Assembly: GCA_019748195.1 (NCBI GenBank)
Contig: JAIEPW010000129.1
Span: forward strand, 1-64,000
DNA: 64,000 nucleotides
Origin: Bryobacteraceae bacterium
GTDB taxonomy: Bacteria; Acidobacteriota; Terriglobia; Bryobacterales; Bryobacteraceae
Direction: 5' to 3'
Below the pieces are notes generated by a model, which was not told where the DNA came from, made no database searches, and saw only the letters and a list, made by a program, of their open reading frames with translations. The translations under genes were made by a program, and so were the position numbers. Shown piece after piece: positions 42,992 through 48,477 of the stretch; the first letter of the stretch is position 1; each line of letters opens with the position of its first letter.

Positions 42992-44215
42992 CTATGAGGA
43001 GGTGCGTGAGAACAGGCCGCCGAACAGTCCGCCCAGCGCGGAGGTCTTTTTCTCCGGCTTCTGCTTGCCGCCCAGCTTGTCGGCGAGCTGGCCGATCGCC
43101 TTGCCGAAGGCCGAATTGGAGGAAATCGGCTTGCCCTCCACCAGCGCCCGCTGCACCCCTTCGTAGTCGCTGGGAATCAAATGAAACACCTCGCGGTGCA
43201 GCGCCTGTCCGATCACGTCCTTGTTCAGCCCTACTTCCTTGTCGTACCGGTTCACCAGCAGCCGGACCTTCCAGTCGCCGATCCGGTGGGTTTCGAGGTA
43301 GGAAAGGGCGCGCTGGGCGGCTTGCAACGCGGGCAACTCATTCGTGGTTACCAGAAGAAGTTCGTTGGCAAAGCGGGCGATGCTCAACGCCCAGTCTCCG
43401 TACACCCCGGCCGTGTCCACGATAATCGCGTCGTAGTGGCGCCTGGCGTACTCGAAGATCGGCGCCGCGTCGGTGATCTCGTTGATCCCCTCGACCATCA
43501 TCTCCGGCGCAAGCAGAACATCGACTCCCGCGGAGTTGGTCACCATCGCCTTCCACAGGTCGGCGTCCAGCCCGGGACTGCGCAGCAGCACGTCCATGAA
43601 GCTGTAGGTGGATTTTACTTTCAACAAAAAGGACTGTGTCCCCGCCAGCGGGTCCAGATCCACCAGCAGAACCTTCTTGGCCCCGGTTCGTTTCCACTGG
43701 TGCGCCAGGTTGGAGGCAATGGTGCTGGCGCCGCAGGCGCCCTTGGCGGGCATCACCGCGTACACCCGCGCCGGCTCCTTATGGAACGCCTCCTCGGACC
43801 CTTGAATTCGGGCCATTTTGGCCAACGCGGAACTGAGATGGTCCGCGGTGAAGGGCGGCACCATGAAATCCACGGCCCCCTGCCGCAGGCATCGCAGGAT
43901 GAAATCCGGATCGTTGGCGGACAGGACCGCGACTACGCCCAGGTTGCCATCCAATTTCTGCAGGGCGTTGAGAATGCGCAGGGCATGCTCGCGATCGGAG
44001 GTAACGTCAAGAAAACAAACGTTCGGATGGCGGGACGCAAAATCTTTCGAGAGCTCCGTGTCGTCCACGTACGCAGCTATCTGGTGAACTGTCGAGCCAG
44101 CCACGTGGGACGTGATCAGTCCGCTCAGTTCGCCAAGCAAGCGCGAACTCGGAGATATGAACCAAGCTCGCAAGGAGCTGCGGGGAGCTTCCGGATTCGG
44201 CATCAGGGCGGCCAC
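42992..44215 (-). CDS. CpaE/TadZ-like ATPase with receiver-like domain
   Basis: A 407-residue protein of the MinD/ParA superfamily. An N-terminal receiver-like domain (about 15-130) contains PNVCFLDVTSD and LRCLRQGAVDFMVPPF. A ParA-type ATPase follows, with a deviant Walker A (PAKGACGASTIASNLAHQW near 152-170), VLLVDLDPLAGTQSF, and IIVDTAGVYGDWALSIA. This matches CpaE/TadZ, which positions Tad pilus machinery at the pole. The Gly/Phe/Ser-rich tail (ALGGLFGGLFSRTSS) is unusual. Other tad/cpa genes are not adjacent in the 20 kb around it. Start could be M1 or M5. It is divergent from a LuxR-type regulator gene 149 bp away. Confidence 0.85.
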   Translation of the reverse strand: MAALMPNPEAPRSSLRAWFISPSSRLLGELSGLITSHVAGSTVHQIAAYVDDTELSKDFASRHPNVCFLDVTSDREHALRILNALQKLDGNLGVVAVLSANDPDFILRCLRQGAVDFMVPPFTADHLSSALAKMARIQGSEEAFHKEPARVYAVMPAKGACGASTIASNLAHQWKRTGAKKVLLVDLDPLAGTQSFLLKVKSTYSFMDVLLRSPGLDADLWKAMVTNSAGVDVLLAPEMMVEGINEITDAAPIFEYARRHYDAIIVDTAGVYGDWALSIARFANELLLVTTNELPALQAAQRALSYLETHRIGDWKVRLLVNRYDKEVGLNKDVIGQALHREVFHLIPSDYEGVQRALVEGKPISSNSAFGKAIGQLADKLGGKQKPEKKTSALGGLFGGLFSRTSS

Positions 44216-44364: not shown

Positions 44365-44997
44365 ATGAAGAACACTGTTGCAGTTTGTGACACACAACCA
44401 ATCACCGCCGAAGGCCTCCGGTCCCTCGTCAACAGCACTGACGATTTGACCTATCTTCAAGCGGCACAAAGCCTTGCACAGGCCGCGGAAATGGTCAAGC
44501 AGCATCCGCCGGACATCATGATCCTGGACAAAGCCTTTGGCATACAGGCGATCCTGGAGTGGCTGGCGGAGCGCCGGGCCTCCGGAACCCCAACCCGAAC
44601 GGTCATCTGGGGAGTGTCGGTGACGGAAGCCGAAGCTCTCCGCTTCCTGCAGGCCGGCGCATACGGCATGCTGCGCAAAACCGCGCAGCTCCCCGCCGTG
44701 CTCTCCTGCCTGAAAACAGTCGCCCTGGGGCGCAGTTGGATGGAGGATTCCGTTTTCCGCGATACCGGCCGCGCGGACCGCTACCCCCGATCCGAACTCA
44801 CCATGCGCGAACAGCAGGTGCTGGAACTGGTGGAGCAGGGTTTCAAGAACAAAGACATCGCCCTGGAACTCGGTATCCGTCCCGGCACCGTTAAGATTCA
44901 CCTGAAGCACATCTTCGAGAAAACGGGAGTGCGGGGCCGTTACGGCCTGGCGCTCAACGGCATTAAAGAAAAAGGGGTGCTGCCGCTCTCGGCGTGA
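44365..44997 (+). CDS. LuxR/NarL-family response regulator
   Basis: A 210-residue two-domain regulator. The N-terminal receiver (about 1-120) has an acidic pocket (VCDTQPITAEG) and phosphoacceptor Asp in IMILDKAFG near 55. RKTAQLPAVLSCLKTV carries the conserved Lys-equivalent. The C-terminal helix-turn-helix (about 148-205) reads LTMREQQVLELVEQGFKNKD and IALELGIRPGTVKIHLKHIF. It probably binds DNA as a dimer after phosphorylation by a histidine kinase encoded elsewhere. It is divergent from the CpaE/TadZ-like gene, so it may control that gene or surface attachment; this is inference. Its start codon is preceded by a short dyad. Confidence 0.9.
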   Translation: MKNTVAVCDTQPITAEGLRSLVNSTDDLTYLQAAQSLAQAAEMVKQHPPDIMILDKAFGIQAILEWLAERRASGTPTRTVIWGVSVTEAEALRFLQAGAYGMLRKTAQLPAVLSCLKTVALGRSWMEDSVFRDTGRADRYPRSELTMREQQVLELVEQGFKNKDIALELGIRPGTVKIHLKHIFEKTGVRGRYGLALNGIKEKGVLPLSA

Positions 44998-45058: not shown

Positions 45059-46726
45059 GTGAAATACGCTGTGCTCGTTGTGCTGTCCTGTGGAGCTCTG
45101 GCGGCCCAACCCCAGGACCTGAGTTCCATTCTGGCCGCCGAACTGAACCGGAACTTCCAGGTCCTGAAGGAAAAGGGCGATCCGGCAGCCTACTACCTCG
45201 CTTACACGGTCACCGAGATCGAATCCGAAGTCGTCGCCGCCAACGCTGGTTCGCTGCAGTCCCAGAACCGGAATCACACCCGCCTTCTCGACGTGACCGT
45301 CCGGCTGGGCAGCCCGGAGCTTGACAACTACCGGTCCGTGCGGGGACAGCGCACCCAGTTCACCTCCGGCACCCAAATCGCCCTGGTCGATGATCCGGTC
45401 GCCATCCAGCGGCGTCTGTGGCTGGAGACCGATCGCGTCTACCGCGCCGCCTCCCAACGGCTGATGCAGGTGAAGACGGACGAAAAGATCAAGGCGGCCG
45501 TGGTTAGCACCGCGCCCGATTTTTCGGCGGAGCAGCCTGCTACGTTCGCCGCGCCTCCCGCCAGGCTGAAGTTCAACGCCGCCGAGTGGACCCAGCGCCT
45601 GCGCAAGCTCTCGCAGGAGTTCGCCAAGTATCCGTCGGTGCTCAATTCCGGACTGAACGTCACGGCCCAGCGCGAAACCAAGACCATGGTGAACACCGAG
45701 GGCACCAAGATCACGCATGGACGCCTGTTTTCCCGGGTCTCGATCTTCGCGCGCGCGAAAGCAGCCGACGGCATGGACCTGGTGACCACGCACAGCTTCG
45801 AGAGTGAAGATCCCTCCGGGCTGCCCAAGGATTCCGAGATCGCCGCCGGAATCGAGAAGGTGTCGACCGAACTCACCTCGATGCTGCGGGCCTCCCCGGT
45901 GGACCCGTTTGTGGGTCCGGCGATCCTGTCCGGGAGCGCCGCCGGAGTCTTCTTCCACGAAATCTTCGGACATCGCGTGGAGGGTCACCGGCAGAAGGAC
46001 GAGAGCGACGGCCAGACGTTCACCAAGAGCGTGGGCAAGCCGGTGCTGCCTGACTTCCTGTCCGTGATTTTCGATCCCACGCAGGCCAAGGCCGCCGGCA
46101 CGGATCTGTTCGGGGCGTATTCCTACGATGACGAAGGGGTGAAAGCGCGGCGCACGCCAGTGGTGGAAAACGGCGTACTGAAGGGATTTCTGATGTCGCG
46201 ATCGCCCATTCCCGCCTTTTCCAACTCGAACGGGCACGGGCGGCGGCAGCCCGGCGCGGAAGTGGTTGCGCGGCAGTCGAACCTGTTTGTGGAATCGAGG
46301 AAGACTGTGTCCGAAGCCCGGCTTCGCGAGATGCTCAAGGAGGAGATCAAGCGCCAGAACAAGCCCTGGGGGTTGTATTTCGCGCAGGTGACAGGAGGCT
46401 TCACCACCACGGGCCGCACCGGTCTGCAAGCTTTCACGGTGATTCCGCTGGTGGTGTATAAGGTTTTCCCCGACAACCGTCCGGATGAGATGGTTCGCGG
46501 GGTCGACATTGTCGGGACGCCGCTGGCGAGCTTCGCCAAGATCGTGGCCACCGGCGATCGGCCGGCGGTATTCAACGGGTACTGCGGCGCGGAATCGGGG
46601 AACGTGCCGGTTTCGGCGATCTCGCCCGCGGTGCTGGTTTCCGAGATCGAAGTGCAGCGCAAGCCCAGCCCGCAGGAAAGCCGGCCTTATCTTCCGCGGC
46701 CGGAAACGCAAGGGGGTGCGCAATGA
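45059..46726 (+). CDS. Exported TldD-like metalloprotease
   Basis: A 555-residue TldD/PmbA-family protein starting at GTG 45059. It has a signal peptide (YAVLVVLSCGALAAQ), which TldD of Escherichia coli lacks. The zinc motif HExxxH is intact: H300, E301 and H305 in FFHEIFGHRVEGHRQ. It is followed by family sequences such as SYDDEGVKARRTPVVENG, FLMSRSPIPAF and NSNGHGRRQPG. TldD acts with TldE in cleaving unfolded peptides, for example in microcin B17 and antitoxin processing. Here the partner is probably the next gene, which overlaps by 4 bp (ATGA) and lacks the zinc motif. Export suggests a periplasmic peptidase complex. Confidence 0.88.
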   Translation: MKYAVLVVLSCGALAAQPQDLSSILAAELNRNFQVLKEKGDPAAYYLAYTVTEIESEVVAANAGSLQSQNRNHTRLLDVTVRLGSPELDNYRSVRGQRTQFTSGTQIALVDDPVAIQRRLWLETDRVYRAASQRLMQVKTDEKIKAAVVSTAPDFSAEQPATFAAPPARLKFNAAEWTQRLRKLSQEFAKYPSVLNSGLNVTAQRETKTMVNTEGTKITHGRLFSRVSIFARAKAADGMDLVTTHSFESEDPSGLPKDSEIAAGIEKVSTELTSMLRASPVDPFVGPAILSGSAAGVFFHEIFGHRVEGHRQKDESDGQTFTKSVGKPVLPDFLSVIFDPTQAKAAGTDLFGAYSYDDEGVKARRTPVVENGVLKGFLMSRSPIPAFSNSNGHGRRQPGAEVVARQSNLFVESRKTVSEARLREMLKEEIKRQNKPWGLYFAQVTGGFTTTGRTGLQAFTVIPLVVYKVFPDNRPDEMVRGVDIVGTPLASFAKIVATGDRPAVFNGYCGAESGNVPVSAISPAVLVSEIEVQRKPSPQESRPYLPRPETQGGAQ

Positions 46727-48477
46727 GGCTGGCGATCTTGCTGTTCGCCTTCGTCGCCGCGGCCGCGGCCCAGCAGGCGGCGCCTCAGCCGGGCAGCGAC
46801 GATCCGGTGATCCGCGCGATGCGCGCCGAAGTGGAGCGCTCCAAGGGCCTGCGCGTCATCGACATCGATGTGCCCTATTTCATCCAGTACACGCTGAACG
46901 ACGCGAGCGGCTTTGGCGCGCAGGCCACGCTGGGGGCGCTGATTTCGTCCAACTCCACGCGATTCCGGCTGCCGAACGTCGAAGTCCGCGTGGGAAGCTA
47001 CGACTTCGATAACACGGGCCACGTTTTCTCCGGCCTCTCGCGATTGCCCCGGCTGGACCCGGAGCAGTGGCCGCTGGATGACAACGAAGCCTATCTGCGC
47101 AGTTGCCTATGGCTGGCGACGGACCGGGCTTACAAGGTCGCCCTCGAATCCATCTCCCGGAAGCGGGCGAGCCTGAAGAACCTGCCGCAGCAAAGCGAAC
47201 GTCTGCCGGATTTCCTGAAAGCGACGCCGGTGACATACTTCGAAAAACCGCCCGTCGTAAAGTACGATCCGGAGCAGTGGAAGAAACGGACCGCCGAGCT
47301 TTCGAGCGTGTTCCGCGCCTACCCCGAGATTCTTGCCTCCGGTGTCGAATCGCAGATTCTCACCGGCAAGACGTATCAGGTGAACAGCGAAGGCACGGCG
47401 CTGCGCACCAACGATTTGTTGAACTTCGTTCGCGCCCGGGCGGAAATCCTGGCGCCCGACGGGACGCTGCTGCGCGACGCCGTTTCGTTCCAGTCCCTGG
47501 TTCTCGATCAGTTGCCCTCGCAGGAGCGGATGCGGGAGGCGCTAGTCGCCATGGCGGAGGATTTGAAGGCACTGGCAAAGGCGCCGGTCGCGGAGCCTTA
47601 CACCGGACCCGTGCTGTTCGAACCGCGCGCCGCGGCGCAGTTGCTGGCGCAGTTGCTCGGCGACAACCTGCGTGTCCAGCAGCGTCCGGTGAGCGAGCCC
47701 AACCGCCCGGTTCCGATCATCCCCAGCGATCTGGAAGGCCGTCTGGGCGCGCGAATCCTGCCGGAATGGCTGGAGGTGATCGACGATCCGACGCTGCGGG
47801 AGTGGAACGGCAAGCCCGTCAGCGGATCCTACGAATACGACATGGAGGGCGTGCCCGCGCGGCGAGTGGCCGTGACCGAGAAGGGCGTCCTGAAGAACTT
47901 CCTGCTGACGCGCACGCCGGTGAAGGGCTTCTCCACGTCGAACGGCCACGCGCGTTTCCCCGGAGGGTTCGGGCAGTACGCCGCGGCGATTTCGAACCTG
48001 ATCATCGAGCCCGGCGAGTCTGCCCCGATGGGTGATCTGAAGAAGAAACTGATCGAAGCGGTCCAGACTCGCAGCAAGCCTTACGGCCTTCTGATTCGCA
48101 AGTTGGACTACCCATCCGGCGCGAGCCAAAACGAGCTGCGCAACCTGCTGACGGCCGCCGGGGGCGGGGTCCGGCCGGTGAGCCTGCCGCTGTACGTGTA
48201 CCGGGTTTATCCTGACGGCCGCGAGGAGCTCGTGCGGGGGTTGCGTTTCCGCGGGCTGACTTCCAAGGCTCTGAAGGACATCCTGGCCGCGTCGCGGGAG
48301 CGTGAAGTGTTCGAGTTCATCAACAACGTGGCGCCTTTCGCCGCAATGAGCGCCGGCGGATTCCTGGCTCCGGCCACGGTGATCTCACCCGGCCTGCTGA
48401 TCGACGACCTGGAACTCGACAAAGCGCAGGGCGAACTGCTGAAGACGCCCCTGGTCCCGCCGCCGTCGACCCATTAG
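46723..48477 (+). CDS. Exported TldE/PmbA-like partner without zinc motif
   Basis: A 584-residue TldD/PmbA-family protein with its own signal peptide (LAILLFAFVAAAAAQQ). It can be followed along the previous protein, for example EYDMEGVPARRVAVTEKG and LLTRTPVKGFSTSNGHARFP. At the position of the zinc motif it reads AAQLLAQLLGDNLRVQQ, so both histidines and the glutamate are gone. In TldD/TldE complexes TldD is catalytic and TldE is not. This matches a TldD/TldE heterodimer, made by coupled translation. Its stop overlaps the convergent methyltransferase gene by 4 bp (TTAG). Confidence 0.85.
   Translation: MRLAILLFAFVAAAAAQQAAPQPGSDDPVIRAMRAEVERSKGLRVIDIDVPYFIQYTLNDASGFGAQATLGALISSNSTRFRLPNVEVRVGSYDFDNTGHVFSGLSRLPRLDPEQWPLDDNEAYLRSCLWLATDRAYKVALESISRKRASLKNLPQQSERLPDFLKATPVTYFEKPPVVKYDPEQWKKRTAELSSVFRAYPEILASGVESQILTGKTYQVNSEGTALRTNDLLNFVRARAEILAPDGTLLRDAVSFQSLVLDQLPSQERMREALVAMAEDLKALAKAPVAEPYTGPVLFEPRAAAQLLAQLLGDNLRVQQRPVSEPNRPVPIIPSDLEGRLGARILPEWLEVIDDPTLREWNGKPVSGSYEYDMEGVPARRVAVTEKGVLKNFLLTRTPVKGFSTSNGHARFPGGFGQYAAAISNLIIEPGESAPMGDLKKKLIEAVQTRSKPYGLLIRKLDYPSGASQNELRNLLTAAGGGVRPVSLPLYVYRVYPDGREELVRGLRFRGLTSKALKDILAASREREVFEFINNVAPFAAMSAGGFLAPATVISPGLLIDDLELDKAQGELLKTPLVPPPSTH

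Follow-up and report, generated by a model that had tools for sequence, protein, structure and literature searches.

Escherichia coli TldD and TldE (PmbA) constitute a cytoplasmic, microcin-processing heterodimeric metallopeptidase (MEROPS M103). The window analyzed here, by which we mean the whole stretch of 64,000 nucleotides from a soil-type Bryobacteraceae bacterium, contains two tandem genes, A and B, that a sequence-only reading had described as an exported TldD/TldE-like pair with one active and one dead zinc site. The locus therefore raises the question of whether a pair of this kind may act outside the cytoplasm and, if so, whether its dead member is TldE or a protein of different origin. 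The features on which our answer rests are collected in Table 1; the ATGA overlap of A and B that had been reported is present in the sequence.

Table 1. Positions of the A/B pair, its parts, and its upstream neighbors in the window
Feature	Position	Strand	Remarks
Gene A	45059..46726	+	GTG start, 555 aa; predicted exported TldD-family protein, metal site intact (H300, E301, H305, C509)
Gene B	46723..48477	+	ATG start, 584 aa; predicted exported dead paralog of A, not TldE
ATGA stop/start overlap of A and B	46723..46726	+	ATG at 46723-46725, TGA at 46724-46726
Predicted signal peptide of A, MKYAVLVVLSCGALA(A), then QPQ	45059..45106	+	Predicted cut near residue 15-16; rule-based scan and homologous N termini
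Predicted signal peptide of B, MRLAILLFAFVAAAAA, then QQ	46723..46770	+	Rule-based scan and homologs
HEIFGH codons, A residues 300-305	45956..45973	+	Alignment to E. coli TldD
CGAESG codons, A residues 509-514	46583..46600	+	C509 aligns with TldD Cys454, the third ligand of the metal
AAQLLAQLLGDN, B residues 304-315, replacing the HExxxH helix	47632..47667	+	Alignment
LuxR-type response regulator, 5' of A	44365..44997	+	Context only; kept upstream in 24 loci
CpaE-like ATPase, divergent	42992..44215	-	Context only; upstream in 27 loci, window included

Fold, metal site, and export signals

Both proteins belong to the TldD/PmbA superfamily, by domain score as well as by fold. The Pfam family PF19289 (PmbA_TldD_3rd, gathering score 22) scores 99.2 bits on A and 73.7 bits on B and is matched by 39 of 39 homologs of each. 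By sequence, TldD in the Protein Data Bank is found with A at an E value of 8.6e-12. AlphaFold models of the two monomers, built on 39-row alignments, have pLDDT values of 88 (A) and 91 (B), and in Foldseek searches each model found, below an E value of 0.001, only structures of TldD, TldE, or PmbA (16 hits each, probability 1.00), the top match being TldD 5njf_A for A (E 2.8e-29) and reaching E 1e-23 for B. Placing the second protein in this superfamily, as had been proposed, is thus sound. Orthology is a different matter: against the NCBIfam equivalogs, A scores 36 bits for TldD (cut-off 513) and B scores 23 bits for PmbA (cut-off 438), which identifies neither A as TldD nor B as TldE.

In E. 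coli TldD, the metal ligands are His262, His267, and Cys454, and the base is Glu263 (PMC5810440). In a joint alignment, H300, E301, H305, and C509 of A share columns with these residues, and B holds other residues at all four columns, with no His, Glu, His, or Cys. The alignment confirms HExxxH in the first protein, as HEIFGH, and AAQLLAQLLGDN at that position in the second, and it adds C509 to the residues that had been named before. The asymmetry extends across related loci: HExxxH is present in all 76 A proteins and in none of 74 B, and the Cys corresponding to the third ligand in 75 of the 76 A (a contig end truncates the remaining one) and in no B. A thus has the ligand set of TldD, HExxxH with a remote Cys, and B lacks metal ligands in the manner of TldE. 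From these residues, A is likely to be a zinc peptide-cutting enzyme and B its inactive twin.

Export signals were identified by a home-made rule (positive n-region, uncharged hydrophobic core of 9–12 residues, small residues at -3 and -1), with start codons of A and B assigned by homology and the best result over candidate starts counted for each homolog. The N termini of both window proteins fit the rule (MKYAVLVVLSCGALAAQ and MRLAILLFAFVAAAAAQ), as do those of 98/105 A and 96/103 B homologs; among the controls, it was positive for 0/25 canonical TldE, 2/12 canonical TldD, neither E. coli protein, and 0/8 other genes of the window. When a single start was taken per gene, only 69/105 A and 80/103 B homologs were signal-positive, mainly because of wrongly picked starts, and most homologs that fail the rule look signal-like by eye, being Tat-like or lacking an early Lys or Arg. 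AxA-Q type cleavage sites and short cores are found in nearly all A and B homologs. The claimed signal peptides on both proteins are thus supported by the rule with its controls and by conserved homologous N termini, which predict Sec-type export of A and B, each by its own signal peptide, rather than the cytoplasmic location of TldD and TldE.

It might still be argued that the hydrophobic N termini are uncleaved anchors or artifacts of start choice and that the pair is cytoplasmic like TldD/E, given start codons that rest on homology and signal calls that come from a home-made rule. We find this barely credible, because, by the same rule, the combination of short cores and AxA-Q sites is rare in canonical TldD and absent in canonical TldE, and because 13 B proteins carry a twin-arginine-like signal, which fits export of B. 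A separate candidate, A as a lipoprotein by virtue of LSC at residues 9–11, was rejected: the Cys is too close to the start for a lipobox and, by eye, is not conserved in homologs.

The twin-arginine-like motifs (e.g. SRRxFL) occur in the signals of 13/74 B proteins (L065, L066, L069, L074, L076, L077, L078, L082, L092, L102, L107, L110, and L112) and 0/76 A proteins. The dead half seems, on these motifs, to switch export route within one protein pair.

Ancestry of the inactive partner

A and B are 30–31% identical over their full length (E 1e-61), and TldD and TldE are matched only in part. A tree of 62 rows, unrooted, spanning large divergences, and calculated with the active-site columns left out, resolves into six clean groups. 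A and B are each monophyletic and are joined at 100/100, and A+B lies separate from TldD, from TldE, and from a third pair (D2/E2). AU tests reject one clade of all active subunits (p 1.7e-60, at a cost of 152 log units) and one clade of all dead subunits (B, TldE, and E2; p 5.5e-7). With the C-terminal domain only, A+B is again joined at 100/100, and the all-active clade is rejected with p 7.5e-4.

These results bear directly on the reading of A and B as ordinary TldD/TldE orthologs with added signal peptides, in which B would be a diverged TldE. The active/dead logic and the gene order are indeed those of many tldD-tldE pairs, and sequence searches score B slightly higher against PmbA than against TldD. 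But the B model is closer to TldD (TM 0.63) than to TldE (TM 0.56–0.57), the match between A and B spans the full length whereas that to TldD/TldE is partial, the equivalog scores are far under their cut-offs, and the tree and AU tests reject the arrangement with p 7e-4 or lower under the model used. Taken together, these observations make this reading highly improbable. What stands of the “TldD/TldE-like pair” is a conserved, TldD-family pair, predicted to be exported, with one intact and one lost metal site; B as a TldE ortholog is rejected by the tree and AU tests, and the tree joins it to A.

Since A and B are sisters and a grouping of B with TldE is rejected, the metal site would have been lost in B independently. 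The history we propose is that an exported A-like ancestor was duplicated and that one copy then lost its site to become B, separately from the split between TldD and TldE; the tree is unrooted and spans large divergences, but the size of the difference makes it unlikely that the result would be overturned. With the same proviso of an unrooted tree, the active/dead pair design appears to have arisen at least twice. The authors of the TldD/E structure assumed a similar course there, with one TldD copy losing its site to give TldE (PMC5810440). The one-sided dead-partner design would then appear twice, once in the cytoplasm and once outside it. This suggests that the hollow protease fold is drawn toward a one-sided dead partner, and it offers two independent cases to compare.

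Distribution, neighborhood, and possible role

Species genomes searched with the A alignment yielded at least 581 relatives, the best 80 of which were examined as loci. These 80 come from Acidobacteriota and from contigs titled Aminicenantes, Verrucomicrobia, Planctomycetota, Cloacimonadota, Elusimicrobia, and Alphaproteobacteria (one alphaproteobacterium); they are metagenome bins, in which lone odd placements may be binning errors. The signals, the active/dead asymmetry, and the order of A then B recur in Acidobacteriota and on contigs labeled as five other phyla. Among the best 80 of at least 581, B follows A directly and on the same strand in 76 loci, often with an overlap of 1–4 bases, and two more loci are cut by contig ends; in L105 and L139, no B was seen within the 5 kb 3' of A, and these represent either a lone A or a rearranged locus. 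In a spread sample of Acidobacteriota, A is present in 26 of 149 genomes. One genome, G071, gave a single divergent A-like match only.

The window's genome has a separate, ordinary TldD/TldE pair on another contig. In G189, G190, and G192 (the genomes of L142, L134, and L126, bins of unstated completeness), no TldD-family genes other than A and B were found, so that the pair appears able to do without TldD/E. The same genomes speak against the possibility that A is active alone as a homodimer, with B a separate binding protein or chaperone, as does the near-constant position of B directly 3' of A. An active Sulfolobus TldD homodimer has been reported (PMC5810440), and two loci show A with no B nearby; we nevertheless consider this possibility improbable. 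A/B would be an uncharacterized, widespread metallopeptidase that, by its signals, resides in the periplasm, in Acidobacteriota as well as in other phyla.

The neighborhood gives a further indication of function. In 51 of the 53 Bryobacterales loci with sequence there, a fused lptF-lptG gene lies directly 3' of B on the same strand, mostly less than 20 bases away; its product, LptFG, has ~775 aa and two LptF_LptG domains (PF03739). In 13 of 13 family genomes checked, this adjacent LptFG is the genome's sole LptF/LptG, fragments aside. The window's genome has its single lptFG on another contig, not after B, and upstream of that gene, at the contig edge, no second A/B copy and no trace of B was found. 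The cpaE-like and LuxR-type genes 5' of the window pair match in kind those found in relatives, so the pair seems to occupy the relatives' locus, with lptFG moved away. Outside Bryobacterales, LptFG adjacency was seen at none of the loci examined, and LptFG linkage is thus not needed for the A/B pair to exist. The gene order suggests co-expression within one bacterial order, not a fixed partnership, and within Bryobacterales it points to envelope assembly rather than peptide-toxin maturation. We know of no Lpt system that includes a TldD-family protease, and searches of a library of open-access papers gave nothing relevant on TldD with Lpt or on TldD as a pseudoenzyme. Adjacency to an essential outer-membrane machine makes the role of the pair in Bryobacterales directly testable.

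Other neighbors (cation efflux, FecR, and enolase-like genes) recur only within small groups of relatives. Genes that by eye look enolase-like and phosphotransferase-like lie 2–3 kb upstream in 11 loci (L074, L080, L081, L084, L087, L088, L092, L101, L111, L114, and L118) as part of a wider synteny. In E. coli (NC_000913.3, 3390583-3396258; L192), tldD directly follows yhdP on the same strand. YhdP is an envelope phospholipid transport factor, so that here, too, a TldD neighbor is concerned with the outer membrane, perhaps by chance.

On balance, we lean toward A and B forming an exported TldD-type metallopeptidase, a heterodimer that acts on unfolded peptides and, in Bryobacterales, is linked to the assembly of the outer membrane. 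Each protein would pass the Sec translocon by its own signal peptide and then lose it, and in the periplasm the two would assemble into a hollow heterodimer. A would hold the metal through two His and one Cys, with a catalytic Glu, and B would serve as the structural, catalytically dead half of the shell. Its substrates would be unfolded peptides or the tails of proteins, threaded into the shell and clipped there, as by the cytoplasmic E. coli TldD/E. With an intact site in A and predicted export, periplasmic peptide processing is plausible. In Bryobacterales, the pair would be co-expressed with the sole LPS-export permease, LptFG, and would act in outer-membrane assembly or its quality control.

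The main rival to this proposal is a periplasmic amide hydrolase whose substrate is not a peptide; LPS, lipid A, or another envelope glycan passing LptFG might, for instance, be acted on by an N-deacetylase or deacylase of this kind. It is the main rival because N-deacetylases are named in the TldD family, in the title of reference 135 of PMC10885120. The sole LptFG adjoining the pair in Bryobacterales would suit such an enzyme, and so would changes in A near the TldD clamp, where the salt-bridge partners Lys456 and Asp272 are replaced by A511 and H310. The catalytic C-domain of A, however, with its GRR, SN, and CGxE..VPV motifs, is laid out like that of the peptidase TldD, and the LptFG link is missing in most host lineages. 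An amidase acting on an envelope molecule thus seems rather unlikely to us.

The peptidase proposal could be extended. TldD-type proteases with one active and one dead subunit may have evolved independently a second time, as A/B, and A/B may be periplasmic in many Gram-negative phyla; in Bryobacterales, it would in addition be a working partner of Lpt that, for example, trims or clears proteins at the Lpt site or modifies LPS there. We put this forward tentatively and, taken as a whole, regard it as doubtful.

Comparison with known systems

In searches of a library of open-access papers, we found no exported TldD/E or TldD/PmbA pair. The LptF/LptG permease of the Lpt transporter (PF03739) is the direct downstream neighbor in Bryobacterales and is not part of the A/B pair. 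A is like the archaeal zinc metalloprotease TldD (Arch_mtprotase_TldD, NF040952), its best NCBIfam match, with 98 bits over residues 170-532, far below the equivalog cut-off of 635.

The third lineage, D2/E2, from other Acidobacteriota, resembles A/B in being an active/dead pair, some of whose active members have a Tat-like signal. It differs from A/B in that E2 joins TldE in the tree and the dead partner has no signal. In 6 of 9 aligned D2 proteins, the third ligand is Asp instead of Cys, a change noted in PMC5810440. The D2 proteins of L177, L178, L179, L180, L185, and L186 have HESxGH or HExxAH, with a Tat-like signal on the active subunit and none on the dead partner where it is seen; a folded partner could possibly hitch-hike through Tat.

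With E. coli TldD/TldE, A/B share the whole-chain fold, HExxxH and a remote Cys in one subunit only, and the pairing of an active with a dead protein. Unlike the E. coli proteins, A and B are predicted to be exported, have longer chains, and include a dead subunit of separate origin. Only the C-terminal domain and, weakly, the central one are similar in sequence; Pfam likewise detects the central domain of A and B weakly and does not recognize their N-terminal region. If the proposed heterodimer forms, A/B may be likened to the “pencil sharpener” TldD/E, which acts on unfolded chains (PMC5810440).
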